From Methylobacter sp. (GTDB taxonomy: Bacteria > Pseudomonadota > Gammaproteobacteria > Methylococcales > Methylomonadaceae), in contig JAUXXQ010000068.1 of the NCBI GenBank assembly GCA_030684815.1, forward strand, positions 1-47,572: DNA of 47,572 nucleotides, given 5' to 3'. How positions within the stretch are numbered: the first letter of the stretch is position 1; every line of letters begins with the position of its first letter. Both the position numbers and the translations under genes were made by a program. This document shows, one piece after another, positions 14,519-34,902 of the stretch. The notes beneath the pieces were generated by a model that worked only from the letters and a program-made list of their open reading frames with translations, did not search any database and was not told the DNA's origin.

Positions 14519-15305
14519 AGCCAAAATCAGGCAGTCGTTTGCGGCTGCCTCGGTGACTTATGACGGCGTTGCGGCTTTGCAGCGCAGCGTTGGCTCGGCG
14601 CTGTTGGCTATGATAGACAGCGAAAATATGGGCGGAACTTTGCTCGATGTGGGCTGCGGCACCGGTTTTTTAACCGCGAATTTGGTAGGGCGCTTGGAAA
14701 GGGGCACGCAAAGCTTAGCCTGCACGACGCTTATCGCGCTGGACATTGCCTTGCCGATGCTGCAAGTCACGCGGGCAAAACTGGCCGATAGGCCGAATGT
14801 CAGCTATGTTTGCGCCGATGCGGAACAATTGCCGCTTGCCGGGCAAAGCGTCGATGGCGTGTGTTCTAATCTCGCATTGCAATGGTGCGTCAATCTTGAA
14901 ACGGTTTTTAGCGGTATGAAACGGGTGTTGAAACCGGGCGGACGGCTGGTTTTTTCGACATTCGGGCCGCAGACATTGCAGGAGTTAAAAGCCGCGTGGG
15001 TAGAAGTCGACGATTTTAACCATGTCAATGAGTTTTACGGAGAAGCGCAGTTAAGGCATTTTCTGCAGCAGGCGGGTTACGCCGAGATAACGATTGAAAC
15101 CAGCATTTACCGACCCTGCTATGCGTCTGTTTTGGCGCTGATGAAAGAACTCAAGCATATCGGCGCGCATAATGTCATGGCGGGGCGTAACAAAAATATG
15201 ACTGGTAAGACGCAGATGCGGCAAATGATGGCGGCTTATGAGCGGCACCGGGACGGCGGCTTTATTCCAGCGACTTTTGAGGTGATTATAGTGAGGGCAA
15301 GTTGA
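14505..15305 (+). CDS. bioC: Malonyl-ACP O-methyltransferase
   Basis: A 266-residue SAM-dependent methyltransferase that methylates malonyl-ACP so that fatty-acid synthesis can build pimelate. The SAM site LLDVGCGTGF is at about 46-55, and a post-motif aspartate lies in ALDIALPM. The N-terminus (SFAAASVTYD) is typical of BioC. The start at 14505 lies inside the end of bioH (14-base overlap), and its TGA overlaps the bioD ATG, giving tight coupling. The length is near the usual 250-270. Confidence 0.95.
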   Translation: MHLDKAKIRQSFAAASVTYDGVAALQRSVGSALLAMIDSENMGGTLLDVGCGTGFLTANLVGRLERGTQSLACTTLIALDIALPMLQVTRAKLADRPNVSYVCADAEQLPLAGQSVDGVCSNLALQWCVNLETVFSGMKRVLKPGGRLVFSTFGPQTLQELKAAWVEVDDFNHVNEFYGEAQLRHFLQQAGYAEITIETSIYRPCYASVLALMKELKHIGAHNVMAGRNKNMTGKTQMRQMMAAYERHRDGGFIPATFEVIIVRAS

Positions 15306-15964
15306 TGGCAACGGGCTATTTTATAACCGGCACCGATACCAATGTCGGCAAAACCTGGGCAACGATTGCACTGATGCGTTATTTTCAAAATCAAGACCAA
15401 TCTGTGGTGGGCATGAAGCCGGTTGCAGCAGGCTGTGTGATGCAGGACGGGCAGCTGAAAAATGAAGATGCTTTGTTGATACAGGCAAACGCGTCAATAC
15501 CGATCGATTATGACTTAATTAACCCTTACGCCTACGAATTGCCGGTGTCGCCGCATATTGCCGGGGTCGGCAATCCGGCCAACTTGGCGCACTTAGTTGC
15601 CCAGTTTGGGCGCTTAAAAAAACGGGCGGACAGGGTTGTAGTTGAAGGTGCGGGCGGTTGGTACAGCCCGTTAAATGAATGGGAAGCCAACAGCGATTTG
15701 GCCGTGGCGCTGGCGCTGCCGGTTATCATGGTGGTCGCGATCAGGCTGGGTTGCATCAATCATGCGCGCTTGACTTATCAGGCGATAAGGCAGTCAGGCG
15801 TAGACTGCGCGGGCTGGATTGCGATGTGTACAGACCCCGATATGTTAAGCCGGGACGAGAATATCGCCGCAATAAAAATCGCTGTGAATGCGCCTTTGCT
15901 CGGTGTGTTGCCTTATCGGGAACTTGCCGATTTTGATTTTTTTTCGGCACAGCTGAAGTTATAA
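15305..15964 (+). CDS. bioD: ATP-dependent dethiobiotin synthetase
   Basis: A 219-residue P-loop enzyme that closes the ureido ring of biotin from DAPA, CO2 and ATP. The N-terminal GTDTNVGKTW loop binds ATP, Lys36 or so in GMKPVAAGC matches the catalytic lysine, and VEGAGGWYSPL is the conserved carboxylate-containing loop near 115-125. The ATG at 15305 (TGATG overlap with bioC) is preferred over the TTG three bases before it. It ends the biotin run, so bioA (DAPA synthesis) must lie elsewhere. The stop is 10 bases from the end of the convergent GGDEF gene. Confidence 0.96.
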   Translation: MATGYFITGTDTNVGKTWATIALMRYFQNQDQSVVGMKPVAAGCVMQDGQLKNEDALLIQANASIPIDYDLINPYAYELPVSPHIAGVGNPANLAHLVAQFGRLKKRADRVVVEGAGGWYSPLNEWEANSDLAVALALPVIMVVAIRLGCINHARLTYQAIRQSGVDCAGWIAMCTDPDMLSRDENIAAIKIAVNAPLLGVLPYRELADFDFFSAQLKL

Positions 15965-19929: not shown

Positions 19930-21084
19930 GTGAAGAAAAAAAAGCAACTGTTCGCAGGACTGGTTCTAATGGCTTTAGGCCTAGGGACAGCACAGGCGGA
20001 TTACACGCTCAATTTAATGAAAGGGGTTACCAAGGTCAGTAATGACATTTATGACCTGCACATGTTGATTTTATGGATTTGTGTGTTCATAGGTATTGGT
20101 GTATTTGGAACTATGTTTTATTCGATTTACCATCATCGTAAATCAAAAGGGCATAAAGCGGCGCAGTTTCATGAAAATACCACCGTTGAAATTATTTGGA
20201 CGATTATTCCGACTTTGATTTTGATTGGCATGGCTATTCCGGCCACGAAAGCCATGATCGAATTGGATGATGTGCAGGAATCCGATATGTCCATTAAAGT
20301 CACCGGGCATCAATGGAAATGGGAATATGAATACCTTGATAATGGTATCCGTTTTTTCAGCAGTCTCGATGAAGCCAGCAATAAAGCGCGCCAGATGGAT
20401 TCAGGTATAGATCCACGGTCAGTGCCCCATTACTTGTTGAATGTTGACAAGCCTTTGGTTATCCCGACTAAAAAGAAAATCCGTTTTGTATTCACTTCAG
20501 CTGACGTTATCCACTCTTGGTGGGTTCCTGATTTAGGTTGGAAAAAAGACACCAATCCTGGCTTCATCAATGAATCATGGACTTCTGTTGATAAGCCTGG
20601 CACTTATCGCGGCCAATGCACCGAACTGTGCGGTAAAGACCATGGCTTTATGCCGATTGTGGTCATTGCCATGGATGAACCTGATTACAATGTTTGGGTT
20701 GAGCAACAAAAAGCGGCAGCCTTAGCGGAAGCCAGTTCAGCCGATAAGACGTGGTCTACTGAAGAGTTGGTCGCTAAAGGGCAGTCCCTGTATGAAACAA
20801 ATTGCGCTTCTTGCCACATGGCTGATGGCGCAGGTTTAGCCGGAACTTTCCCCGCCATAACGAAAAGTCCAGTGGTCACTGGTGATATTAATGCCCAAGT
20901 CAATTTGATGTTGAACGGAAAAGGCATGATGCCTGCTTTCGGCAAAATATTAAGCGCTGTTGATTTTGCAGCCGTTGTAACCTATACCCGTAATGGCCTG
21001 GGCAATTCAGTGGGTGATTCTATACAGCCATCAGCTATCCAGGCTCTGCAGTCGGCAACACCGGCGGCAGATAAAAATGAATAA
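19930..21084 (+). CDS. coxB: Cytochrome c oxidase subunit II with fused cytochrome c domain
   Basis: A 384-residue subunit II of an aa3-type (caa3-like) oxidase. It has a cleavable signal peptide (about 1-23), two membrane spans (about 45-70 and 90-110) and a periplasmic cupredoxin domain with the CuA ligands His195, Cys230, Cys234, His238 and Met241 (CTELCGKDHGFM). A C-terminal c-type heme domain has CASCH at 292-296 and a distal Met in GMMPAF. The start is the GTG at 19930 behind a strong AGGAGG. The fused heme suggests electrons enter directly from a soluble cytochrome c. It is the first gene of the coxB-coxA-small protein-cox11-coxC run. Confidence 0.97.
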   Translation: MKKKKQLFAGLVLMALGLGTAQADYTLNLMKGVTKVSNDIYDLHMLILWICVFIGIGVFGTMFYSIYHHRKSKGHKAAQFHENTTVEIIWTIIPTLILIGMAIPATKAMIELDDVQESDMSIKVTGHQWKWEYEYLDNGIRFFSSLDEASNKARQMDSGIDPRSVPHYLLNVDKPLVIPTKKKIRFVFTSADVIHSWWVPDLGWKKDTNPGFINESWTSVDKPGTYRGQCTELCGKDHGFMPIVVIAMDEPDYNVWVEQQKAAALAEASSADKTWSTEELVAKGQSLYETNCASCHMADGAGLAGTFPAITKSPVVTGDINAQVNLMLNGKGMMPAFGKILSAVDFAAVVTYTRNGLGNSVGDSIQPSAIQALQSATPAADKNE

Positions 21085-21138: not shown

Positions 21139-22755
21139 ATGTCTGCTGTAGTCGCTGAACATGATGATCATCACGATCATCACGATCATGGTCCTGCCAA
21201 GGGGCTGTTAAGATGGATTATTACCACCAACCATAAAGATATCGGTACGCTCTATTTGCTGTTTGCGTTGGCGATGTTTTTTGTTGGCGGCGCCATGGCC
21301 ATGGTTATTCGCGCTGAATTGTTTGAACCGGGCATGCAGTTTGTTAATCCCCAGTTCTTTAATTCAATGACCACCATGCATGCTTTGGTTATGGTGTTTG
21401 GTGCGGTTATGCCGGCGTTTGTCGGCTTGGCCAATTGGATGATTCCAATGATGATTGGTGCGCCGGATATGGCATTGCCGCGCATGAACAACATGAGCTT
21501 TTGGTTGTTGGTTGCCGGTGTTTTGTTGTTGGCCAGCACCTTGTTCATGGAAGGCGGCGCACCTGCCAGCGGCTGGACTTTGTATCCGCCGTTGGTATTA
21601 CAAACCGGCAATGCCTTGCCTTTTGCGATTTTCTCGGTGCATTTGCTGGGTATCTCGTCAATCATGGGTGCCATTAACATCGTCGCGACTATTTTCAATA
21701 TGCGTGCCCCCGGCATGACTTTAATGAAAATGCCGATGTTTGTTTGGACTTGGCTGATTACTGGCTTTTTGTTGATTGCCATCATGCCGGTTTTTGCCGG
21801 TGCGGTGACCATGCTGTTAACTGACAAATTCTTCGACACCAGCTTTTTTGATGCAGCGGGCGGCGGTGACCCAGTCCTTTATCAACACATTTTCTGGTTC
21901 TTTGGTCATCCCGAAGTTTACGTGATGATTCTGCCTACCTTTGGTGTGGCTTCCACCATTATCCCCGTATTTGCGCGTAAACCTTTGTTTGGTTACAGTT
22001 CAATGGTTTATGCGACAGCTTCAATTGCCTTCCTGTCATTTATCGTCTGGGCCCACCATATGTTTACGGTGGGTATGCCGATAGCGGGTGAGTTGTATTT
22101 CATGTACGCCACCATGTTAATTGCGATTCCTACCGGGGTTAAAGTGTTTAACTGGACTGCGACCATGTGGAAAGGCTCGATGACTTTTGAAACACCGATG
22201 CTGTTTTCCATTGCTTTCGTTGTGTTGTTTACCATGGGCGGTTTTACTGGATTAATGATGTCTGTTGCGCCGGTTGATTTCCAGTACCACGATACGTACT
22301 TCATCGTTGCACATTTCCATTACACGCTGGTTCCTGCTTCTGTCTTTATATTGATGGCTGCCGGTTATTTCTGGCTGCCTAAATGGACGGGGCACATGTA
22401 TGACGAGAGAATCGGCCGTTTGCATTTCTGGTTGTCTGTTGTTTCGGTAAATATCCTATTCTTCCCGCAGCATTTCTTAGGATTAGCAGGTATGCCACGC
22501 AGAATCCCAGATTATGCTGTGCAATTTGCCGATTGGAATATGATCTCCAGTATTGGCGGCTTTATCTTCGGCGCCAGCCAATTGTTGTTCCTTTATGTTG
22601 TTATTAAAACTATCAACGGCGGAACAGGCGAAAAAGTAACTGATGAAGTATGGGAAGATGCAGCCAAGCATAGTTTGGAATGGACTTTGCCTTCACCTCC
22701 TCCTTATCATTCTTTTACTACGCCACCTACAGTAATACCTACTGAACATATCTAG
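21139..22755 (+). CDS. coxA: Cytochrome c oxidase subunit I
   Basis: A 538-residue heme-copper oxidase core subunit with twelve predicted spans, holding heme a, heme a3 and CuB. The active-site GHPEVY motif carries the His-Tyr crosslink pair. HH in WAHHMF (CuB) and HFHYTLV (heme a3 and heme a ligands) are present, and TTMHALVMVF holds the other heme a ligand. The D- and K-channel type segments make it an A-type proton pump. The N-terminus has an unusual histidine/aspartate run (HDDHHDHHDHG, residues 8-18). It follows coxB after 54 bases. Confidence 0.98.
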   Translation: MSAVVAEHDDHHDHHDHGPAKGLLRWIITTNHKDIGTLYLLFALAMFFVGGAMAMVIRAELFEPGMQFVNPQFFNSMTTMHALVMVFGAVMPAFVGLANWMIPMMIGAPDMALPRMNNMSFWLLVAGVLLLASTLFMEGGAPASGWTLYPPLVLQTGNALPFAIFSVHLLGISSIMGAINIVATIFNMRAPGMTLMKMPMFVWTWLITGFLLIAIMPVFAGAVTMLLTDKFFDTSFFDAAGGGDPVLYQHIFWFFGHPEVYVMILPTFGVASTIIPVFARKPLFGYSSMVYATASIAFLSFIVWAHHMFTVGMPIAGELYFMYATMLIAIPTGVKVFNWTATMWKGSMTFETPMLFSIAFVVLFTMGGFTGLMMSVAPVDFQYHDTYFIVAHFHYTLVPASVFILMAAGYFWLPKWTGHMYDERIGRLHFWLSVVSVNILFFPQHFLGLAGMPRRIPDYAVQFADWNMISSIGGFIFGASQLLFLYVVIKTINGGTGEKVTDEVWEDAAKHSLEWTLPSPPPYHSFTTPPTVIPTEHI

Positions 22756-22817: not shown

Positions 22818-22916
22818 ATGAGCACCAAACAGAAAAATATTTTAACAGCATTGGTTTTAATCTCAGTTGCGCTGACTATTTATGTTTTTGCAGTGATTCG
22901 GGCTGTTTCCCAATGA
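22818..22916 (+). CDS. Cytochrome oxidase small assembly protein (32 residues)
   Basis: A short gene for a 32-residue protein beginning [16 protein letters not shown]. It has a charged N-terminus and one membrane span (about 9-28). Its TGA overlaps the cox11 ATG by four bases (ATGA), so it is coupled to cox11. Proteobacterial cox operons often hold such a tiny membrane protein exactly between coxA and ctaG/cox11, annotated as a small oxidase assembly protein. The ribosome binding site is weak. Function in copper or heme insertion is inference from position. Confidence 0.75.
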
Positions 22917-23458
22917 CCGAAAGTGTTGAACGAAAAAATGCCAAGCTAATTCGAATTTTGGTATTTGTTGTAGTGGGGATGTTTGGTTTTGGTTATGCTC
23001 TGGTGCCGATTTATGATGTTTTGTGCGAAGTGACAGGGCTTAATGGCAAAGTCGAAGCCTCTGCGGTTGAGGATGTCGGCTATGACGTTGATAAAAACAG
23101 GGAAGTGACTGTAGAGTTTATGACGGCGCTGAATGAGGCGACACCGATGGTGTTCCATTCAGAAATGAAAAAATTAAAAGTTCATCCGGGTGAATATTAT
23201 ACGGTGAATTTTTATGCGGAAAATAAGACCGATAAAGTCATGGTTGCCCGGGCAATTCCAAGCATTTCGCCTGGCGCGGCTGCTGAGTTTTTTAAAAAAA
23301 CCGAGTGTTTTTGTTTTTCAGAACAGACCTTTCAAGCGCAAGAAGGCAGGACTATGCCGGTGCGATTTGTGGTTAATCCTGATCTGCCTGAAAAATATAA
23401 AACAATTACACTCGCATATACATTTTTTGATATTACTGAAACATCAGTAAAAAAATAA
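22913..23458 (+). CDS. ctaG: Cytochrome c oxidase assembly protein Cox11/CtaG
   Basis: A 181-residue copper chaperone that delivers copper to the CuB site of subunit I. The N-terminal anchor is at about 13-33, followed by the conserved [12 protein letters not shown], and the periplasmic domain has the copper-binding pair Cys132 and Cys134 in ECFCFSEQ. The length is typical for Cox11. It starts inside the stop of the small upstream gene and is followed by coxC after 12 bases with the ribosome binding site AGAGGGGAAG. Confidence 0.96.
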
Positions 23459-23470
23459 GAGGGGAAGTTT

Positions 23471-24334
23471 ATGTCTACAAGTGACGCTTATTACATTCCG
23501 CATAAAGCAACCTGGCCAGTCATTGGTACTGCCGGTTTAGTAACTATGCTGGCTGGATTTGCAAATTATTTAAATGGTTCGTCGATTGGCTCAACGCTGA
23601 TGGTGCTGGGGTTGATTATCTTTATAGTGATGTTGGCTGGTTGGTTTACGTTGCAGTCTGGGGAAAGTGAATCAGGCATGTACAGTACCCAGGTTGGTAT
23701 TTCTTATCGCATGGGGATGATGTGGTTTATTTTCTCGGAAATTATGTTCTTTGCCGTTTTCTTTGGCACACTTTGGTACACGCGTAATTTATCGGTGCCT
23801 TGGTTAGGTGGTGACGGTGCACATGCCGCCACTAAAGAATTACTGTGGCCTACCTTTGAAGCGGTTTGGCCGACTAATGGACCGGGTAAGGTCGGCGGCG
23901 AATTTGAGTCTATGGGCGCATGGGGCTTGCCATTTTTGAACACCTTGATTCTGTTGACCAGTGGCGTATCTTGCACCTGGGCCCATCACGGGCTGTTGGC
24001 TAAAAATCGCGACCAGTTGATTAAAGGTTTGGCGGTTACCGTCGGTTTGGGGCTTTTGTTTGTGGCTTGCCAAGCTTTCGAATATCATGAAGCTTACACC
24101 GAAATGGGTTTAACGTTAGGTTCTGGCATTTATGGCTCGACCTTTTTCATGCTGACCGGCTTTCACGGTTTTCACGTTTGCGTGGGCGCTATCATCCTCG
24201 GTGTTGTATTATTCCGTAGTTGGAAAGGCCACTTCAAACCGGAAAATCATTTTGCCTTTGAAGCTGCCGCTTGGTATTGGCATTTTGTTGACGTAGTTTG
24301 GTTGGGCTTGTTTGTGTTTGTTTATGTAATTTAA
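23471..24334 (+). CDS. coxC: Cytochrome c oxidase subunit III
   Basis: A 287-residue subunit III with seven predicted spans, needed for oxidase stability and proton uptake. It contains the family segments WPVIGTAG near the N-terminus, FSEIMFFAVFFGTLWY in the middle, and GFHGFHVCVGA and AAAWYWHFVDVVWL at the C-terminus. The acidic residue in FSEIMFF and the FEAAAWYWHFVDV end are standard. It closes the first part of the oxidase operon; a strong terminator follows 17 bases after its stop. Confidence 0.98.
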   Translation: MSTSDAYYIPHKATWPVIGTAGLVTMLAGFANYLNGSSIGSTLMVLGLIIFIVMLAGWFTLQSGESESGMYSTQVGISYRMGMMWFIFSEIMFFAVFFGTLWYTRNLSVPWLGGDGAHAATKELLWPTFEAVWPTNGPGKVGGEFESMGAWGLPFLNTLILLTSGVSCTWAHHGLLAKNRDQLIKGLAVTVGLGLLFVACQAFEYHEAYTEMGLTLGSGIYGSTFFMLTGFHGFHVCVGAIILGVVLFRSWKGHFKPENHFAFEAAAWYWHFVDVVWLGLFVFVYVI

Positions 24335-24526: not shown

Positions 24527-24775
24527 TTATTTAGCTGCAGAAGCGGGTGTCTGATGAATTTTGGCGCCTAATCCATGAGGCGTGAACAGGCCAGTAGCAA
24601 ATGCGATGAAAATGAAAATGAATAACACAATTGAAAGGGCAATCCGAAAAGTCAGTGCTTTGACTGTTTTTTCGGATTGTTCCGGCGTTTTGTGCCTCAC
24701 CAGATGAAACAGCGCGGAACCGAGGCTGATAATTATCAGGATAAAGGCGATAATAACGATGCTTTTTATAATCAT
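24527..24775 (-). CDS. Twin-transmembrane protein, DUF2909-like
   Basis: An 82-residue protein with two membrane spans (about 5-25 and 43-64) joined by a basic loop (HLVRHKTPEQSEKTVKALTFR). This layout and the KALTFRIALS motif match small proteins of the DUF2909 family found beside oxidase genes in gammaproteobacteria. I start at the ATG at 24775; an in-frame extension to 24856 reaches close to the SURF1 start and looks non-coding. It lies between coxC and SURF1 on the opposite strand, a position often seen for this family. Function unknown; a link to oxidase assembly is inference. Confidence 0.7.
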   Translation of the reverse strand: MIIKSIVIIAFILIIISLGSALFHLVRHKTPEQSEKTVKALTFRIALSIVLFIFIFIAFATGLFTPHGLGAKIHQTPASAAK

Positions 24776-24877
24776 GGGGATAGGGTGATGTTGATTAAGG
24801 TTTTTGTATTCTCGGTTATTTAGCTGTTTGTGCCAATAGGATAAAGAAAAAAGCATGATTCTCTGGATAATTCGCCA

Positions 24878-25600
24878 ATGAAATTTAAATTCATCCCAAC
24901 CTTAATTTACCTGTGCCTATTGCCGGTATTGCTCGCTTTAGGCGCTTGGCAGCTAGACCGTTCACAACAAAAACGGGGCTTGATTGAGTCCCAGGCGCAG
25001 GCGTTGGCAAGCGAAATCCTACCGCTGTCGCCGCTCACTAAGAACGATGCGGAAACGTTACGATACAGGCAGGCCGAGGCTGTTGGCCGTTACGATGTGG
25101 CGCATCAGTTTTTGCTCGATAATCAAATCAGCGAGGGAAAGGCCGGTTATTTTGTGCTGACGCCGTTTATTTTGGCCGGAAAAAAACAGGCGGTTTTAGT
25201 GAACCGGGGCTGGGTTCCTTTGAACCCAGACCGCTCCATTCTTCCTGATTTACAAATCAGCCAGATAGAGGCAATGATTAGCGGCCGGATTAATAATTTT
25301 CCTAGCGTTGGTATAAGATTGGCGGGCGCCGAAATTCCGGCAGCCGGTTGGCCAGCCGTAGTGCAGGTGGTTGATAGCGAGGTATTGGCTAAAAAATTAG
25401 GCTACCCATTATTTCCGTTCCAGCTTGAGTTGGCTAAAGAACTGCCTGATGGCTTTAAACGGGACTGGCACACCTCAACCATCATGCAGCCGGAACAACA
25501 CACAGCCTATGCATTCCAGTGGTTTGCTTTGGCATTGACATTAACAATACTGTTTATTTGGTATGGCTTTAAAAACAATGATGCACAATCAAAAAAATAA
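24878..25600 (+). CDS. SURF1 family oxidase assembly protein
   Basis: A 240-residue SURF1/Shy1 protein that assists insertion of heme a into cytochrome oxidase. It has an N-terminal span (about 6-22) followed by GAWQLDR, a periplasmic domain with the conserved VNRGWVP (about 108-114), and a C-terminal span (about 213-232, YAFQWFALALTLTILF). The length is usual. It starts a second block of oxidase assembly genes and its end overlaps the next gene by about 20 bases. Confidence 0.93.
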   Translation: MKFKFIPTLIYLCLLPVLLALGAWQLDRSQQKRGLIESQAQALASEILPLSPLTKNDAETLRYRQAEAVGRYDVAHQFLLDNQISEGKAGYFVLTPFILAGKKQAVLVNRGWVPLNPDRSILPDLQISQIEAMISGRINNFPSVGIRLAGAEIPAAGWPAVVQVVDSEVLAKKLGYPLFPFQLELAKELPDGFKRDWHTSTIMQPEQHTAYAFQWFALALTLTILFIWYGFKNNDAQSKK

Positions 25601-26177
25601 AAATCATCTATTAATCCTGGTCATTTTCGGCATGTCGGTTATTCCGTTTTTGATCGCTTGGGGATTAAAAGAGCATCCCCAGCTGTTAAATGGGCAAACT
25701 AATCATGGCCGGTTAATAACGCCGCCATTGACAACCGAGCGCAGTGACCTAACCGGGTTCGATTCGTTTTCAGCGGAAAATATGTCAGAACTTGCCGGGC
25801 ACTGGCTGCTGGTGAATGTTATCCCAGAGTCCAATTGCAATGACGTTTGCATTGAAGCCCTGCATAAAACCAAACAATTGCGGCTGATGTTAAATAAGGA
25901 ACTGCCGCGTACCCGTCGAATAGTGTTGATATTAAAAGATATTGCGCCGGAAATTGCGGCGTCTTGGTGGGCGGATGACAAGACCTTAATAAGGGTTAAG
26001 CCGAATGACGCAGTTATTAAGAAACTTGCCGACATCAGGCAAGGCAATATTCCACACGGGATGTTGTTGTTAATGGATCCGTTAGGTAATGTAATGATGC
26101 AGTATGAGCCTGGATTCGACCCTTACGATGTGAAAAGTGACCTGATGCACCTTTTGCGAATCTCACAAATTGGATAG
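25578..26177 (+). CDS. SCO-like thioredoxin-fold membrane protein of the cox locus
   Basis: A protein of about 199 residues with one N-terminal span (residues about 9-29 from this start) and a periplasmic domain. It has a CNDVC motif (CxxxC, Cys87 and Cys91 here) after WLLVNVIPES, like the copper site of SCO1/PrrC proteins. The downstream region (RRIVLILKD, HGMLLLMDPLGNVMMQYEPG) is consistent with a thioredoxin fold. SCO proteins deliver copper to CuA in subunit II. I choose the ATG at 25578; an in-frame ATG at 25563 would lengthen the overlap with SURF1. The stop overlaps a GTG for the next gene. Genes of this type are common between SURF1 and ctaA. Confidence 0.75.
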   Translation: MMHNQKNKNHLLILVIFGMSVIPFLIAWGLKEHPQLLNGQTNHGRLITPPLTTERSDLTGFDSFSAENMSELAGHWLLVNVIPESNCNDVCIEALHKTKQLRLMLNKELPRTRRIVLILKDIAPEIAASWWADDKTLIRVKPNDAVIKKLADIRQGNIPHGMLLLMDPLGNVMMQYEPGFDPYDVKSDLMHLLRISQIG

Positions 26178-26191
26178 TGGAAAAAAATAAA

Positions 26192-28159
26192 ATGTTTAGA
26201 AAAATAACTCTCTTTGGCGTTGTTTTAGCCTTAATCGTTATCATTGCAGGTTCATACGTTCGTTTATCCGGCGCAGGGCTGGGTTGCCCCGATTGGCCGG
26301 GCTGTTACGGTCAAGCTATTCCTTCCGGCTCTGCTGACTTTGTAGAGCAGGCGGCCAGGACATTTCCCGGTCATATCCCCGACCTTGCAAAAGCCTGGAA
26401 GGAAATGGGCCACCGTTATTTGGCTGCAAGTTTAGGCCTGACTATCCTGTTATTGGCATTGTTGTCATGGCGTCAACAACAATGCCGCCTCGCAGTGGTT
26501 TCGGCGGCATTGGGTTTGCTGGTTTTGGTGGGTCTACAAGCCGCTTTGGGTATGTGGGCGGTAAAAGTGCATTTGATGCCGATTGTGGTCACCGGGCATT
26601 TGTTGCTGGGCATGATGACTTTCTGGTTGCTGTTTTGGCTGTCTTTACGGACCAATACGACAGGTTATCACTCAATTTCGCGTTGGAACGGCTTAACGGC
26701 GTTTGCCCGTTTTGCTATGGCGGTCTTGTTTGTAGAGATTGTTTTGGGCGCTTGGGTCAGTGCTAACTATGCCGCTTTAGCCTGCAGCGGTTTTCCGCAA
26801 TGCAATGGCGCGTGGTGGCCGAAAGCCGATTACCAAACTGCATTGAATTTATTGGGCGGGTTAAGCACCGGTTATACCGGCGTCATCGCATTCGATGCGC
26901 AGGTTGCCGCCAACTGGCTGCATCGGGTCGGTGCGTTGGTCGGCTTTGTGGTGCTGACTGGGTTGATGCTGGCGGCCACCTCAGGCCATCAGCCGAAAGC
27001 GGTGCGAAAAGCCGGGTTATGGTTGGGCGCGCTGTTGTTGCTGCAAATCGGCTCGGCCATTATTGGCGTCAAATTGGGTGCGCCGTTATGGGCGGCTGTC
27101 GCCCATAACGCGTTTGCCGCGCTGTTAATGTTACCGCTGGTTGCAATCAGTTTTTACAGTCGCCAGGCTTATGTTGAAACCTTACCGGTTGAGATAGAAG
27201 CCGAAGCTGTTTCGATAGCGCCTGAAGTTGTTGAACCTGAATCGGTTTATGCACGCCTTAAATCACAGTTAAAACGCACCCGTTCCGGGCTTAGCGGGGT
27301 ATTGGCGCAAATTCCTATCGGTCAAAAAGAAATCGGCGAGGATTTGCTGGAAGCGATTGAGGCTCAGTTATTAATGGCTGACATAGGCGTTGATGCGACC
27401 ACGCAAATTATCAAGCGTCTGACCGACAGTGTTGAGCGGCATCAGCTCAATGATGGCGAGGCTTTAACAGCGGCGTTAAAACAGGAACTGCTCAGTATGT
27501 TGCTGCCTTGTAACCAGAATCTGCAGATCCCCAAACAGGACAAGCCTTTTGTGATTTTGGTTGTCGGCGTTAACGGCGCCGGTAAAACCACGACTATCGG
27601 CAAGCTGGCCAAGCGTTTGCAGACCCAAGGCCATAGCGTTATGCTGGCGGCTGGCGATACCTTTAGGGCGGCTGCGGTCGAGCAATTGCAAACTTGGGGC
27701 GAGCGCAACAACATCCATGTGGTGGCGCAGCATACCGGCGCAGATTCGGCATCGGTCATTTATGACGGCGTGCAATCTGCGCAAGCGAAAGGCATTGATG
27801 TGCTGATTGCCGATACTGCCGGACGTTTGCAAACCAAGTCGAACCTGATGGATGAGTTGAAAAAAGTGAAACGGATTATGGGCAAGCTGGATGAAACAGC
27901 GCCCCATGAAGTGTTGCTGGTATTGGATGCGGGCACCGGACAAAACGCTTTGTCGCAGGCTAAACTGTTTAATGAAACAGTTGCCTTGACCGGTTTGGCT
28001 TTGACTAAGCTTGATGGGACGGCAAAAGGCGGGGTGATTTTCGCATTGGCCAAACAGTTCGGTATCCCGATACGTTTTATCGGCATAGGCGAAGGCATTG
28101 ATGATTTGCAGGATTTTGATGCGGAAGCTTTTGTTAATGCCTTATTTGTCAAAGACTAA
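26192..28159 (+). CDS. Heme A synthase (CtaA) fused to SRP receptor FtsY
   Basis: One uninterrupted frame codes for two known proteins. Counting from an alternative GTG at 26177 (660 residues), residues 6-328 are a complete eight-span CtaA/Cox15 heme A synthase with Cys37/Cys43, heme ligands His79, His141, His249 and His310, and Cys203/Cys209. An acidic linker follows (about 332-356). Residues about 357-660 are the NG domains of FtsY, with GVNGAGKTTT (464-473), DTAGR (546-550) and TKLDG (610-614). CtaA oxidises heme O to heme A; FtsY receives SRP-ribosome complexes at the membrane. CtaA is expected to end in the cytosol, where FtsY must be. The ATG at 26192 looks the better start. An internal ATG at 27128 could yield FtsY with a short hydrophobic tail. 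Confidence 0.9.
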   Translation: MFRKITLFGVVLALIVIIAGSYVRLSGAGLGCPDWPGCYGQAIPSGSADFVEQAARTFPGHIPDLAKAWKEMGHRYLAASLGLTILLLALLSWRQQQCRLAVVSAALGLLVLVGLQAALGMWAVKVHLMPIVVTGHLLLGMMTFWLLFWLSLRTNTTGYHSISRWNGLTAFARFAMAVLFVEIVLGAWVSANYAALACSGFPQCNGAWWPKADYQTALNLLGGLSTGYTGVIAFDAQVAANWLHRVGALVGFVVLTGLMLAATSGHQPKAVRKAGLWLGALLLLQIGSAIIGVKLGAPLWAAVAHNAFAALLMLPLVAISFYSRQAYVETLPVEIEAEAVSIAPEVVEPESVYARLKSQLKRTRSGLSGVLAQIPIGQKEIGEDLLEAIEAQLLMADIGVDATTQIIKRLTDSVERHQLNDGEALTAALKQELLSMLLPCNQNLQIPKQDKPFVILVVGVNGAGKTTTIGKLAKRLQTQGHSVMLAAGDTFRAAAVEQLQTWGERNNIHVVAQHTGADSASVIYDGVQSAQAKGIDVLIADTAGRLQTKSNLMDELKKVKRIMGKLDETAPHEVLLVLDAGTGQNALSQAKLFNETVALTGLALTKLDGTAKGGVIFALAKQFGIPIRFIGIGEGIDDLQDFDAEAFVNALFVKD

Positions 28160-28167
28160 AATAAGCT

Positions 28168-28824
28168 ATGTTGAAATTCGATAATGTCAGTATGCGCTAC
28201 CCTGGAGCAGGCGATGTGTTGCGTAATGTCAGCTTCCATTTGGAGCGCGGTGAAATGGCTTTTTTGACCGGGCATTCAGGCGCCGGAAAAAGCACATTAT
28301 TGAAGTTGATTGCGGTCATCGAACGTTGTAGTCGGGGTCAGGTTTTATTGGATGGGGAAAATCTTAATCAGGCTAAGGATAGGCGGATTCCTTTCATACG
28401 CCGGAAAGTGGGCTTGATTTTCCAGGATTATAAGTTATTACAAGACCGCACCGTTTTTGACAATGTGGCCTTACCCTTAGTCATAGCGGGTTATGGGACT
28501 CACGAAGTGGCCCGAAGGGTGCGGGCCGCATTGGATAAAGTCGGTTTAAAAGGCAAGGAAAGGAAATACCCGGCAGTGTTGTCCGGCGGCGAGCAACAGC
28601 GCGTCGGCATTGCGCGGGCTGTAGTCAATAAGCCGCCGTTGATAGTGGCCGATGAGCCCACCGGCAATCTCGACCCGGAACTGTCGGCTGAAATTATGTA
28701 TTTATTTGAACAGTTTCAACAGGTTGGCGTCACCGTATTGATTGCTTCACATGATATTTCATTAATTACGCAGATGAACCATCGGATTTTAAAATTGGAT
28801 CATGGGCAACTGGTTGCGGGTTAA
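28168..28824 (+). CDS. ftsE: Cell division ATP-binding protein FtsE
   Basis: A 218-residue ABC ATPase that, with FtsX, controls septal peptidoglycan hydrolases in the divisome. Walker [10 protein letters not shown] is at 35-43, the signature LSGGE at 138-142, and Walker [13 protein letters not shown] follows near 160-171. The length is standard. It begins nine bases after the ctaA-ftsY stop and its own stop abuts the ftsX ATG, the usual ftsY-ftsE-ftsX-rpoH order. Confidence 0.97.
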
Positions 28825-29820
28825 ATGATGAAACGCGTCAATAAAAAGCGGAATAAGGAGGGGCGCTGGCAAACTAAACGGTCTGGCGGCAATTTTGTCG
28901 ATAAGCTTCATGCTTACCGCAATCTTCATGCACATGCCTTGTTTTCAAGTCTGGGGCGCTTGGTTGCATCACGCTTTTCTTCGGCAATGACCATCGTCGT
29001 GTTAGCCATCGCCATTTCACTGGCCAGCGGCTTTTATATTCTGGTGGCGAACTTTCAGCAGTTGTCCGGTAACCTGGAAGCAAGTAATCAAATCTCATTA
29101 TTCCTTAAAGATGAAGTTTCAGAGGTGAGGGCGAGCAAATTTGCCGATAGCATCAGAAAAAATCCTGATATTCAGGAAGTTAAGCTCATCACTAAGGAAC
29201 AGGCACTGGCTGAGTTTCAAGCGTACAGCGGATTTGCCGATGCGGTCAAGGCATTGAAGAAAAACCCGTTACCCGCAGTCATTCAAGTGTTGCCGAAAAA
29301 TTCATTTGAAAATGAGCAGGCGCTGGAGGTTTTGCTTGATGATTTTAAGCGCATGGCAGAAGTTGATTTTGCCCAAATGGATATGCAGTGGGTCAAACGC
29401 CTGCAGTCGATTATTGGATTGGCGCGGCGTGGCGTTACTTTGTTAAGCCTGTTGCTAGGGGCCGGTGTGTTGTTTATTACCGCGAATACCATACGCCTGG
29501 AGTTGTATAACCGCCGCGATGAAGTTGTTATTGCCAAATTGGTGGGGGCGACCAACGGCTTTATTTGCCGGCCTTTTTTATACAGTGGTTTTTGGATTGG
29601 TTTTTTTTCCGGGGTGATGGCTTGGTTTATTGTTACAACGATTATGCTGTTTTTGAAACAATCTATTGAAAATTTGTCCAGGCTTTATGATGACAGTTTT
29701 CATGTTCTGTTTTTGGGCTTTACCGAAACGGTGTCATTATTACTTATTTCCTCTGTACTGGGAGTGTTGGGGTCATGGATCGTACTTCATTTCCAGTTGC
29801 GGCAATTAAAACCCGAATAG
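28825..29820 (+). CDS. ftsX: Cell division protein FtsX
   Basis: A 331-residue membrane partner of FtsE. After a basic cytosolic N-terminus (about 1-50) come four spans: about 52-75, 205-225, 250-280 and 295-325, with a periplasmic domain between spans 1 and 2 that in relatives recruits a hydrolase activator such as EnvC. The NRRDEVVIAKLVGAT segment is the typical FtsX cytosolic loop. The start at 28825 directly follows the ftsE stop; a second ATG at 28828 is equally possible. The CIRCE-like operator of rpoH follows 9 bases after its stop. Confidence 0.95.
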   Translation: MMKRVNKKRNKEGRWQTKRSGGNFVDKLHAYRNLHAHALFSSLGRLVASRFSSAMTIVVLAIAISLASGFYILVANFQQLSGNLEASNQISLFLKDEVSEVRASKFADSIRKNPDIQEVKLITKEQALAEFQAYSGFADAVKALKKNPLPAVIQVLPKNSFENEQALEVLLDDFKRMAEVDFAQMDMQWVKRLQSIIGLARRGVTLLSLLLGAGVLFITANTIRLELYNRRDEVVIAKLVGATNGFICRPFLYSGFWIGFFSGVMAWFIVTTIMLFLKQSIENLSRLYDDSFHVLFLGFTETVSLLLISSVLGVLGSWIVLHFQLRQLKPE

Positions 29821-29890: not shown

Positions 29891-30748
29891 ATGAGTAATG
29901 CCTTAGCTTTACCTGTTAATTTATCAGTCGGGACATTTGATGCTTACTTAAATGTCGTCAGGCAAATGCCTAAGTTGACAGTGGAACAGGAACGCGAATT
30001 AGCCTTGAAGTTCAGAGATGACGGCGATTTGGAAGCGGCGCGCGAATTGGTGATGACTAATTTACGTTTTGTGATCCACGTTGCCAGAGGCTACAGTGGC
30101 TATGGTTTATCCATGCCGGACATTATCCAGGAAGGTAATATCGGCCTGATGAAAGCGGTTAAGCGTTTTGACCCCGATGTTGGGGTGCGCTTGGTTTCTT
30201 TCGCTGTACACTGGATTAAAGCCGAAATTCATGAGTATGTGATTAAAAATTGGGGCATTGTTAAAGTTGCCACCACTAAGGCGCAACGTAAATTGTTTTT
30301 TAACTTGCGTAAATCCAAGCAGGGGTTAGGCTGGTTATCCAATGACGAGGCCGAGGCGATTGCCAAAGACCTGGATGTTGATGTCAGCGCGGTTTATGAA
30401 ATGGAAAAACGTTTGGGCAGTAAAGATTTATCTTTTGATATGCCGGTTGATGAAATCGCCGAAGAAACCTATACCGCGCCAGCGAGTTACCTTCATCAAC
30501 ACGGTACAGACCCTGCAGTATTGCTGGAAAATTCGGATTGGGTCGGCCATGAGCAGGATTTATTGGCGGATGCCATGGCGGAGTTGGACGAACGTAGTCT
30601 GGATATTCTGTCGAGCCGTTGGTTAGCGGATGAAAAAGCGACATTACATGAGCTCGCCGAACGTTATAGCGTATCGGCAGAAAGAATCAGGCAATTGGAA
30701 CAAAATGCGATGAAGAAATTACGTGCGGCAGTTGAACTTGCCGCTTGA
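29891..30748 (+). CDS. rpoH: RNA polymerase heat-shock sigma factor (sigma-32)
   Basis: A 285-residue sigma-70 family factor that directs transcription of heat-shock genes. Region 2 (NLRFVIHVARGY, DIIQEGNIGLMKAVKRFDP, SFAVHWIKAEI) and region 4 (DERSLDILSSRW, SAERIRQLEQNAMKKL) are clear. The RpoH box QRKLFFNLRKSK, used in regulation by chaperones and FtsH, lies at about 133-144. AAGGGGGA is an excellent ribosome binding site before the ATG. It follows ftsX as in E. coli. A CIRCE-like site just upstream suggests HrcA control of this promoter. A strong terminator follows. Confidence 0.97.
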   Translation: MSNALALPVNLSVGTFDAYLNVVRQMPKLTVEQERELALKFRDDGDLEAARELVMTNLRFVIHVARGYSGYGLSMPDIIQEGNIGLMKAVKRFDPDVGVRLVSFAVHWIKAEIHEYVIKNWGIVKVATTKAQRKLFFNLRKSKQGLGWLSNDEAEAIAKDLDVDVSAVYEMEKRLGSKDLSFDMPVDEIAEETYTAPASYLHQHGTDPAVLLENSDWVGHEQDLLADAMAELDERSLDILSSRWLADEKATLHELAERYSVSAERIRQLEQNAMKKLRAAVELAA

Positions 30749-32983: not shown

Positions 32984-34018
32984 TTAAATGCCGGGGTTCT
33001 GGGCGTATTTTTTCTTATCCCGCCCAAACCAATAATCGGTCGCCAACTGCTGCGCCTGTTCCTGCGTATCCGCTTTGCCCAGCAACTTGAGTGCAACCGC
33101 CGCTGTGCCGATGATGGACGCTTCGGCAAATTCGTCTTCAGCCTTTCCATGCCAGATTAACGCCAATTGTTCCGGCTCAAGCAGTTCGGGTTTGACGTGG
33201 CGGTGGGTAAACAAAGCGGGCCAGTTTTCGTCGGACAGTTCGCCGTTGTGTACGCTTTGCACCAAACATTCCATATCGGGGTTGCGTTCGGTTTCGCCGC
33301 CTTCGCCTTTTAATACCGCCATGTGCGGCTGATTTAACAGCGCGGCGGCTTGTTGATGCACAGGGCGATAACCGGGATGGAAGATGCCTTGAATGCTGTA
33401 TTGCGCATGAAACGGGTTTAACAAGCGCACCAAGGTGTGAACCGGTGAGCGCAAGCCCAATATCGGGCGCAGTTCGATAATGTCATGCAGTTTGGGGCAA
33501 AAATGGGCGAGCGACAAATAACTAAAATGCTGTTGTGTAAGCTGTTGCTTGGCCTCTTCAATAGAATTTGCGCAGCTAAGCCCTAAAAACGTCAGCATGT
33601 TTTCAGTGTACAGGCGGCCTGCGGTATGGCCGCTGGCGCCGTGCATGAAAACGGTGGTGCCGTTTTCGGCCAGTAATAAAGCGGATAGCAAAAACCAGGG
33701 CAAATGCCGCCGCTTTCCGGCGTAAGACGACCAATCCAAGTCGACTTTTACGGCATTGTCGGCAATGGCAAACGACTCTTGCGCGGCCTGTGCGAATCCG
33801 GCCAATTCTTCCGGAGTTTCTTCCTTGACCCGCATCAGCATCAGGAATGCGCCCAATTGTACCGGCAACACCTGATCGCTCAAGATCATCTGCATGGCGC
33901 GATAGGCTTCATCCTGGGTTAACGGGCGTGAGCCTTTTTTGCCTTTGCCTAAGATGCGGATGATGTCTGCAAACGGATGCTCAGGGGACGGCGTTTGTTC
34001 GTGATGAGTAAAGGTCAT
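32984..34018 (-). CDS. TrpD2/YbiB-like glycosyltransferase-fold protein
   Basis: A 344-residue member of the anthranilate-phosphoribosyltransferase-like family (TrpD2, E. coli YbiB). ADIIRILGKGKKGSRPLTQDEA at the start and PVQLGAFLMLMRVKEETPEEL are typical of the TrpD N-terminal helical domain. The glycine-rich PRPP loop of true TrpD is replaced by MHGASGHTAGR. E. coli YbiB binds nucleic acids and is LexA-regulated, so a DNA-repair role has been suggested. Here it lies beside recA but is read with ctaB: its ATG overlaps the ctaB stop by four bases. Confidence 0.85.
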   Translation of the reverse strand: MTFTHHEQTPSPEHPFADIIRILGKGKKGSRPLTQDEAYRAMQMILSDQVLPVQLGAFLMLMRVKEETPEELAGFAQAAQESFAIADNAVKVDLDWSSYAGKRRHLPWFLLSALLLAENGTTVFMHGASGHTAGRLYTENMLTFLGLSCANSIEEAKQQLTQQHFSYLSLAHFCPKLHDIIELRPILGLRSPVHTLVRLLNPFHAQYSIQGIFHPGYRPVHQQAAALLNQPHMAVLKGEGGETERNPDMECLVQSVHNGELSDENWPALFTHRHVKPELLEPEQLALIWHGKAEDEFAEASIIGTAAVALKLLGKADTQEQAQQLATDYWFGRDKKKYAQNPGI

Positions 34019-34902
34019 AAGGTAAATTTAAAATAATGGTCGATTAACAAGGCGATAAACACGCCGGTTAAATACATTAGCGAATAAAAGAAAGTGCGCA
34101 TCGCGGTTTTATCATCTTTCCGGTGCATCATCAAAATGGCGAAATAGATAAAGCCGAGACCTAACGGCACCACCGCCGCTAAATAAATCAGCCCGCTCAT
34201 GCCGGTCAAATAGGGCAATAGGGTGACGATGAACAGCAGCAGCGAATACAGCAAAATATGCAGACGTGTATATTCCACGCCGTGCGTGACTGGCAGCATC
34301 GGGATGCCGACTTTGGCGAATTCTTTGCGTTTGGCGATAGACAGCGGCCAGAAATGCGGCGGCGTCCACACGAAAATAATCAAAAACAGCAGCAGCGAAT
34401 AAGGATGCAGTTCGCCGGTCATTGCGCACCAGCCCAGCATGGGCGGGGTAGCGCCAAAGGCACCGGCAATGACGATATTTTGCGGGGTCATGCGTTTGAG
34501 GTAAACGGTGTAAATAATCGCGTAACCCAGCGCCGACAGGAAAGTCAGCAATGCGGTCAGGGCGTTGACCAGAATAATCAGCAAAGCCATTGAAATGACG
34601 CCGAGCAACGCGGCAAAAACGATGACATTGGTCGAGCTTAACTCGCCTGTAGGCAAAGGGCGGCGCTTGTTGCGGTCCATCAGTGCATCGGCTTCGCGGT
34701 CGATATAATGGTTAATCGCGGCAGCGGAGGCGGCGGCCAATGCAATGCCTAAGCTGCTGTAGATAAACAGGCCGATAGGCGGCACGCCGGGTACGGCTAA
34801 TAACATGCCCGCTATCGCGGTAAACACAATTAGCGCAACCACTTTAGGTTTGCATAATTCAAGATAACTTTGCCAGGAAGGTCTGGCAGATTCGCTAGTC
34901 AT
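34015..34902 (-). CDS. ctaB: Protoheme IX farnesyltransferase (heme O synthase)
   Basis: A 295-residue UbiA-family prenyltransferase that attaches a farnesyl group to heme B, making heme O, the substrate of CtaA. The prenyl-diphosphate motif is NHYIDREADALMDR (about 64-77), and YLKRMTPQN and KRKEFAKVGIPMLP mark the second half. About eight or nine spans. In many gammaproteobacteria this gene follows ctaA in the cox operon; here it is 6 kb away, coupled to the YbiB-like gene. That displacement coincides with the ctaA-ftsY fusion. The start ATG is at 34902. Confidence 0.95.
   Translation of the reverse strand: MTSESARPSWQSYLELCKPKVVALIVFTAIAGMLLAVPGVPPIGLFIYSSLGIALAAASAAAINHYIDREADALMDRNKRRPLPTGELSSTNVIVFAALLGVISMALLIILVNALTALLTFLSALGYAIIYTVYLKRMTPQNIVIAGAFGATPPMLGWCAMTGELHPYSLLLFLIIFVWTPPHFWPLSIAKRKEFAKVGIPMLPVTHGVEYTRLHILLYSLLLFIVTLLPYLTGMSGLIYLAAVVPLGLGFIYFAILMMHRKDDKTAMRTFFYSLMYLTGVFIALLIDHYFKFTL

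Follow-up and report, generated by a model that had tools for sequence, protein, structure and literature searches.

Gene organization of the locus

The window, a 47,572-nucleotide stretch of DNA from Methylobacter sp. (contig JAUXXQ010000068.1), carries the gene order coxB-ctaD-ctaG-coxC-surf1-redox-ctaA::ftsY-ftsE-ftsX-rpoH, with ctaB convergent downstream of rpoH. The plus-strand genes upstream of the fusion are coxB (19930..21084) and ctaD (21139..22755), which encode cytochrome c oxidase subunits II and I and were assigned by NCBIfam, ctaG/cox11 (22913..23458), coxC (23471..24334; COX3 by Pfam), surf1 (24878..25600; Pfam) and, directly 5′ of the fusion, the gene of a PA0111-like redox protein (25563..26177), whose match lies below the model cut-off. 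On the same strand the fusion is followed by ftsE (28168..28824), an ABC ATPase by Pfam that is named ftsE by position, by ftsX (28825..29820; Pfam) and by rpoH (29891..30748), where Pfam detects sigma-70 regions 2 and 4 and the name is again given by position. The heme O synthase gene ctaB (34015..34902, minus strand; NCBIfam) probably occupies its ancestral place, as judged from the gene order in unfused loci.

A DUF2909 gene (24527..24856) lies on the opposite strand inside the cox cluster, between coxC and surf1, and co-transcription of the fusion with coxB, ctaD and coxC is therefore in doubt. The preliminary description had proposed that the amount of FtsY is tied to oxidase biogenesis; this is weakened by the DUF2909 gene and also by the loci of families f2-f6, of which only 5 of 16 were seen to have oxidase subunit genes upstream of the fusion. 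Of the 139 fused loci whose upstream sequence is long enough, 138 have the redox gene directly before the fusion, and surf1 precedes it in 103 of the 110 loci that could be tested. In 19 of 101 testable fused loci, some of them short, no coxC was found ahead of the fusion, which is nevertheless still there.

Structure of the fusion protein

The fusion gene (26192..28159, plus strand) is free of stops, its frame being open from a GTG at 26177 or an ATG at 26192 through 28159. Counted from the ATG, as are all residue numbers given here, the product has 655 amino acids and a mass of 70 kDa. Pfam places COX15-CtaA at residues 5-314 (5.2e-66), SRP54_N at residues 377-433 and SRP54 at residues 452-652 (2.1e-76), while the NCBIfam ftsY equivalog TIGR00064 gives 365.8 bits against a cut-off of 260.7. 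The in-frame joining of CtaA to FtsY that had been claimed for this DNA is genuine, with complete domains in one frame and 154 distinct fused proteins.

Hydropathy predicts eight TM segments in the window protein. By comparison of residues and TM segments, the CtaA half is made of an N-bundle (TM1-4; 26192..26656, plus strand), the substrate-heme half, in which C32, C38, E71, H74 and H136 are all present, and a C-bundle (TM5-8; 26717..27166, plus strand), the heme-b half, with C198, C204, H244 and H305. E71 is presumably equivalent to E57 of B. subtilis CtaA. The window protein thus shows the features of class B CtaA, that is eight TM segments, both extracytoplasmic Cys pairs (C32/C38 and C198/C204) and both heme His pairs, while many of its fused relatives lack the full set of eight TM segments and two Cys pairs. 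Previously the histidines had been given as His79, His141, His249 and His310; these residues and the Cys pairs are indeed present, although the His numbers are five too high for the start that had been chosen. The shift is such as would come from counting from the upstream GTG.

The C-terminus of CtaA is expected to be cytosolic. This orientation, which had also been claimed before, is predicted for the window fusion, since the Lys plus Arg content of the loops (9/62 inside versus 9/127 outside) favours a C-in topology.

A variable linker (27167..27241, plus strand), which holds no in-frame ATG, GTG or TTG, lies where the A domain of FtsY would be. It is followed by the amphipathic helix alphaN1 (27242..27292, plus strand), recognized by its conservation in 154 sequences, and by the N and G domains (27320..28147, plus strand; Pfam, NCBIfam) with GVNGAGKT, DTFRAAA, DTAGR and TKLDG, which we take to be the GTPase motifs of the FtsY part. 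The N-terminal A domain with alphaA1, which is typical of free proteobacterial FtsY although not universal, is missing, and CtaA is found in its place.

Continuity of the reading frame

An assembly, sequencing or frameshift error could create such an apparent fusion, and there is one broken fused copy, L007 from the 75% complete MAG G045, whose TM8 is interrupted by a single in-frame TGA. However, the 154 distinct fused sequences come from independent assemblies in six families, and single-contig genomes carry the fusion as well (e.g. G043, G061, G079, G126 and G153). Conservation over independent assemblies rules out chance or error, and an artefact is practically out of the question.

Among the fused genes compared there is no conserved stop between the CtaA and FtsY halves, nor is there a conserved internal start in the 154 genes, and the fusion thus survives both of these checks. 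Some in-frame ATG, GTG or TTG occurs between TM8 and alphaN1 in 93 of 154 genes; an ATG is found there in only 11, and a start accompanied by an SD-like motif likewise in 11. Production of a free FtsY by internal re-initiation was rejected, since the starts are not conserved and the window gene has none between TM8 and alphaN1.

Distribution of fused and free FtsY

The closest named relatives are Methylobacter, the best with 93% identity. In the family sample, 143 of 151 genomes have one FtsY match at E<=1e-60 and eight have none; the frames are of at least 558 aa in 141 of the 143, the two short ones being at a contig end (G041) and interrupted by the TGA mentioned above (G045). The order sample gave 53 matches in families f2-f6, 51 of them with frames of at least 656 aa; the short frames of G207 and G222 are probably partial. 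Frames from families f7 and f8 are no longer than 367 aa among the matches listed, which do not extend to G163 of f8. Frame length alone is no proof of fusion, and so the sequences themselves were read. Among 162 distinct FtsY frames there are 154 fused ones, including that of the window, and five free ones (four from f7/f8, and E. coli FtsY, L180); two more are truncated where their contigs stop, and the last is L007. The fused set includes close strains and leans towards the relatives of the window through the way in which it was found; six copies read later are left out of the counts based on 154. A search of related genomes for proteins with both CtaA and FtsY parts, which had been suggested earlier, thus yielded 154 distinct proteins from six families of the order Methylococcales, whereas two further families, f7 and f8, keep a free FtsY. 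All four free f7/f8 proteins read carry MFGFGKKK near their start.

In the class sample, 3 of 369 genomes match P0001 at E<=1e-140, all of them in this order and the window's own genome among them. In the phylum sample of 299 genomes, all the matches listed except the window's own begin at query residue 302 or later, so that none of these reaches into the CtaA part proper. Twelve of at least 14 phylum-sample frames of 590 aa or more (the window's own excluded) were fetched; a multi-span extension is present in none of them, and a single TM-like stretch was seen in three.

No report of a CtaA-FtsY fusion was found in searches of the open-licence PMC literature. PMC9145763 does not contain the word 'FtsY', and the 'fused' or 'fusion' passages of PMC8239418 concern CtaB, DUF420 and COX fusions only. 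The fusion is real and, in the literature searched, unreported.

Origin of the fusion

In three unfused loci, two from f7 and one from f8 (L181-L183), ftsY-ftsE-ftsX-rpoH converges on ctaB-ctaA-redox-surf1-coxC-ctaD-coxB; in a fourth unfused genome, G156, the ftsY and ctaA clusters are on separate contigs. The preliminary description had proposed a merger of the cox cluster with ftsY-ftsE-ftsX-rpoH, which the gene order bears out, and a relocation of ctaB, which it contradicts. In all three linked unfused loci, ctaB is downstream of rpoH on the opposite strand, the same spot as in the window, and hence ctaB stayed and the cox-ctaA block moved. Probably the segment reaching from ctaA to coxB changed its orientation and was transferred to a place ahead of ftsY, leaving ctaB behind, and the resulting joint made the fusion.

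The 16 loci from f2-f6 all have the redox gene before the fusion, and surf1 was found in 15 of them. Within the sequence stretches examined, oxidase subunit genes are near the fusion in L157, L160, L169, L171 and L172, and of the 16 loci only L172 shows ctaB, which there converges on rpoH. The oxidase subunit genes seem to have left the locus later in several f4 genera.

In a tree of the NG domain computed by a quick method, all 154 fused proteins are on one side of a branch with SH-aLRT support of 96, and the free ones on the other. A CtaA tree (36 fused, 4 free and 16 standalone sequences) separates the fused and free proteins from the standalone type with support of 100. If the standalone type is taken as outgroup, the free f7/f8 CtaA fall within the fused ones beside f5. 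One change is enough when this root is dropped, but the tree does not confirm a single origin. The CtaA tree was given little weight because of its long branches and unreliable root.

SRP components and CtaA copies

The genome to which the window belongs (235 contigs, 99.25% complete) has three SRP54-GTPase loci, the fusion, Ffh and FlhF, and carries one 4.5S RNA. The suggested search for a second ftsY gave no further copy in these contigs, which leaves the fusion as the sole FtsY found here. A similar search for a separate ctaA turned up, besides the fusion, a second locus that is not linked to it, a standalone ctaA of a different type between a GcvT-like gene and an AI-2E transporter gene on another contig. 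The standalone type has the first Cys pair only, and its first substrate-heme His is replaced by Asn in 16 of 16 copies compared, which makes it a putative heme A synthase. A similar CtaA is tabulated in PMC8239418 as 'type 1.3, H60N', where H60 would equal H74 of the fusion.

In the order sample, at least two CtaA matches were found in f1-f6 genomes except G154, G164 and G223 (one each), and f7/f8 genomes mostly have one. When 20 genomes with one CtaA match outside f7/f8 were rechecked, the single match was the fused gene in 12. Eleven of these copies were read, of which eight are intact (four g21 genomes, 94-99% complete; G154, 94%; G111, 85%; G150, 89%; G223, 83%) and three decayed (G106, 79% complete; G130, 90% with 5% contamination; G164, 85%); in the twelfth genome, G121 (79% complete), the CtaA match begins at position 85 of the profile. 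Genus mates of G106, G130, G164, G111, G150 and G223 have a standalone ctaA, which may thus simply be missing from those six draft genomes. The credible fused-only lineages are therefore g21 and perhaps G154, both with intact copies, in weak agreement with redundancy. The second CtaA may have made catalysis by the fused one dispensable, an idea weakly tested on few lineages.

COX3 turned up in 19 of the 20 genomes searched for it, lineages with a decayed N-bundle among them, and was missed in G087; an association of the fusion with oxidase loss was rejected on these grounds. A clean link to methanotrophy was also rejected, as AMO-family genes occur in the two unfused families too, if not in every genome.

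Decay of the heme A synthase half

The N-bundle binds the substrate heme O and the C-bundle heme B, and TM5 and TM6 form the core of the Aquifex enzyme trimer (passages of PMC7327177 and PMC8239418). The N-bundle set (C32, C38, E71, H74 and H136) is intact in 48 of the 154 fused proteins and not intact in 106, while the C-bundle set (C198, C204, H244 and H305) is intact in 149; both histidines are kept in 81 proteins for the N-bundle and in 150 for the C-bundle. In the copy L061 of Methylotuvimicrobium buryatense 5G, for instance, Arg and Gln stand at positions 74 and 136. On the NG tree the N set needs at least 16 changes and the C set at least 4, with minima of 24 for H74, 20 for H136, 4 for H244 and 3 for H305. 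One or more C-bundle ligands are lost in L087, L152, L201, L202 and L219, the alignment of L201 and L202 being poor around these ligands, and all five are still fused.

Eight segments are predicted by hydropathy in 115 of the 154 proteins and seven in 28. One lineage, genus g14 with its clade mates, lacks TM2 and TM3 and is left with six segments, TM1 and TM4-8. Six distinct sequences of this form were read and a seventh, L110, looks alike, L109 being one of the six-segment relatives; in g14 the frames are of 565-582 aa in 11 of 11 genomes. The number of spans lost is even, and the NG domain should therefore keep to the same side of the membrane.

Median dN/dS is 0.037 for NG, 0.099 for the C-bundle and 0.121 for the N-bundle among pairs with an intact N-bundle (105 pairs), and 0.061, 0.156 and 0.284, correspondingly, among pairs without one (95 pairs); the pairs are non-independent, and 37 mixed pairs were excluded. 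Medians are used because pairs among f2-f6 loci look saturated.

FtsY is still attached where the substrate-heme set is broken, which indicates anchoring rather than enzyme coupling. The same observation bears on co-translational cofactor delivery, according to which the fusion would put heme A synthesis or hand-over at the place where SRP brings the nascent oxidase subunit I. Such coupling would suit the intact CtaA of the window, the surf1 (103/110) and redox (138/139) genes upstream and the presence of COX3 in the genomes tried, and a passage of PMC9145763 suggests that CtaA binds apo-subunit I. However, the set is broken in 106 of 154 proteins although the genomes tried keep the oxidase, and the fusion persists in the 19 loci, some of them short, where coxC was not found upstream; cofactor delivery is decidedly improbable.

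The alphaN1 positions R355, L356, Q359, L360, T363 and R364 are 94-100% conserved in the 154 sequences. The linker before them varies in sequence and in length (10-47 aa), has a median net charge of -3 and is net negative in 84%. E. coli FtsY undergoes cleavage, as a title cited by PMC5533587 states, and a cut in the variable, mostly acidic linker would give a separate CtaA and a soluble, NG+1-like FtsY, making the gene fusion functionally meaningless. NG+1, which is almost without the A domain, supports growth of E. coli (passage of PMC5533587), so that a cleaved product of the fusion could work too, though NG+1 is only partially active according to a passage of PMC2780400. Against cleavage, the 106 proteins without an intact N-bundle set keep TM segments, and in one lineage an even number of spans was lost; a dead CtaA would be useless in a cleaved protein, and its loss or replacement by a plain start would be expected. 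No internal start is conserved either, and a cleaved precursor is improbable.

The heme-b site is the least explained part. Its ligands are kept beyond the need of an anchor and dN/dS of the N-bundle is below 1 in the decayed lineages, from which it follows that an extra function may remain and that the fused CtaA may keep some role besides spanning the membrane. One such role would be sensing, with heme b and the periplasmic disulfide of the C-bundle gating NG. The four ligands are retained in 149 of 154 proteins while the catalytic half decays, and in the decayed lineages the C-bundle evolves under a lower dN/dS than the N-bundle (0.16 versus 0.28). Yet five proteins have lost at least one of these ligands and are still fused, the linker is unconserved and varies in length, unlike a signal relay, and heme as a structural cofactor accounts for the same pattern. 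As the main reason for the fusion, heme or redox sensing is hardly to be expected. A broader reading, for that reason granted a higher probability though still an unlikely one, is that besides anchoring the C-bundle would be a redox module of heme b and a disulfide that tunes the SRP receptor, the catalytic half having been discarded and the sensory heme site kept by almost all the fused proteins read; membrane-protein insertion would then respond to heme or oxygen status.

A predicted integral-membrane SRP receptor

FtsY is essential in most bacteria studied, and the firmness of its membrane seating has long been debated. The product of the fusion gene is quite probably a natural SRP receptor that is itself an integral membrane protein, with CtaA serving as anchor in place of the A domain and with heme A synthesis of secondary importance. 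A receptor of this kind had been proposed before, and it is supported as what the fusion should be, as predicted from the sequence.

As the sequences show, ctaA landed in frame before ftsY in an ancestor of the fused families, and the CtaA bundle occupies the place that the A domain and the N-terminal lipid-binding motif alphaA1 have in free FtsY, with alphaN1 and the NG GTPase kept. As the C-terminus of CtaA would face the cytosol, NG would stay at the membrane permanently instead of passing through the transient 'Dynamic mode' known from free FtsY, while SRP would still trigger the active 'Stable mode' by way of alphaN1. The CtaA half presumably started as a working heme A synthase, and in the window it may still be one, since all the ligands are there. 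With a second CtaA of the other type in most genomes sampled, catalysis could have become dispensable and the substrate-heme bundle could have decayed or shrunk, as it has in many lineages. With neither an anchor nor a start of its own any longer, FtsY would have been unable to separate from CtaA again. Most of the fused proteins keep the heme-b C-bundle, which in a known heme A synthase forms the core of the trimer, and heme perhaps stabilizes the anchor. The enzyme seems to be on its way to becoming a permanent anchor.

In E. coli FtsY, alphaA1 makes a transient membrane contact and alphaN1 an SRP-triggered stable one; alphaA1 can be swapped for a TM segment, while a TM-tethered FtsY without alphaN1 fails to support growth (passages of PMC5533587). 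The text of PMC2780400 cites Zelazny 1997 for a functional TM-tethered FtsY in E. coli. The fusion matches this two-step model, its A domain being gone, its alphaN1 nearly invariant and its linker variable; indeed, the model, as given in those passages of PMC5533587, allows the transient anchor to be swapped for a polytopic enzyme as long as alphaN1 is kept. Such a replacement would have taken place in six families of an order in which methane oxidisers abound. The fused receptor itself needs membrane insertion before it can work and may thus depend on the very pathway that it serves. Catalytic residues were lost repeatedly while the spans remained, a record of how an enzyme may turn into a scaffold, and a CtaA domain in these genomes need not mean a heme A synthase.

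Comparison with known systems

The FtsY part is similar to proteobacterial FtsY (E. coli FtsY; TIGR00064) in its N and G domains, its GTPase motifs, its alphaN1 and the ftsY-ftsE-ftsX-rpoH gene order. Unlike these proteins, the fusion is without the A domain and alphaA1, and has instead a CtaA of about eight TM segments (six in one lineage).

The CtaA part resembles the class B, or type 1.1, heme A synthases (B. subtilis CtaA, PDB code 6A2J; PDB code 8AW5, which we take to be the Aquifex heme A synthase) with their eight TM segments, two Cys pairs and four His. The window protein matches 8AW5 with 3.7e-12 and 6A2J weakly, with 0.0017, both over the first ~150 residues only. Unlike class B enzymes, the fusion has a C-terminal GTPase, and many relatives have lost substrate-heme ligands or have a shortened N-bundle.

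Integral-membrane SRP receptors are known as S. lividans FtsY with its hydrophobic N-terminal segment, eukaryotic SR-alpha, which is seated on SR-beta, and the engineered TM-FtsY of E. coli (passages of PMC2780400 and PMC5533587; Bibi 2001 and Zelazny 1997 as cited there). The fusion is like them in having a membrane tether before NG, but its tether is a whole polytopic heme enzyme, which originated by gene fusion and is found in six families.

CtaA-CtaB fusions, listed for Ktedonobacter, Bdellovibrio and others in the table of PMC8239418, are similar in that CtaA is joined in frame to another gene product. However, CtaB is the preceding enzyme of the same pathway, while FtsY is functionally unrelated to CtaA.

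Gene order around the fusion

A DUF2909 gene lies on the minus strand between coxC and surf1 (window positions 24527-24856), in the orientation opposite to both, and a match on the opposite strand upstream of the ctaA::ftsY fusion was found at 14 of the 16 loci from families f2 to f6. This arrangement suggests that surf1 and the genes following it belong to a transcript of their own. The end of surf1 and the PA0111-like redox gene share 38 bases (window positions 25563-25600).

In the lineage whose fused CtaA lacks TM2 and TM3 and has six TM segments (L109, L111, L207, L230), surf1 was not found upstream of the fusion and the redox gene still adjoins it, while COX3 was found in all four genomes of genus g14 that were tried. 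On the downstream side, the ftsYEX unit seems to be broken in several genera of family f4, since ftsE was not found 3' of the fusion (L162, L164, L168, L169, L170) and rpoH follows it directly in L168 and L169.

Altered and additional copies

The CtaA half of L201 and L202 (genomes G007 and G057) has lost most of its recognizable heme ligands and part of its membrane spans, with FtsY still joined to it, and in a Pfam search of these genomes this half is no longer detected as CtaA. L007 (G045, contig C246), from a metagenome-assembled genome that is 75% complete, has one in-frame TGA within TM8 of an otherwise fused gene, which is either an error or a true split. Two genomes of the unfused family f7, G204 and G179, each contain a second FtsY-like locus, possibly due to contamination.

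A standalone CtaA, a putative heme A synthase, is encoded on a contig unlinked to the fusion (genome G000, contig C91, positions 14664-15557; L185, 8635-9609), with no oxidase genes among the nine adjacent frames scanned. Only the first Cys pair is present in this standalone CtaA, and its first substrate-heme His is replaced by Asn, a substitution found in 16 of 16 standalone copies compared.
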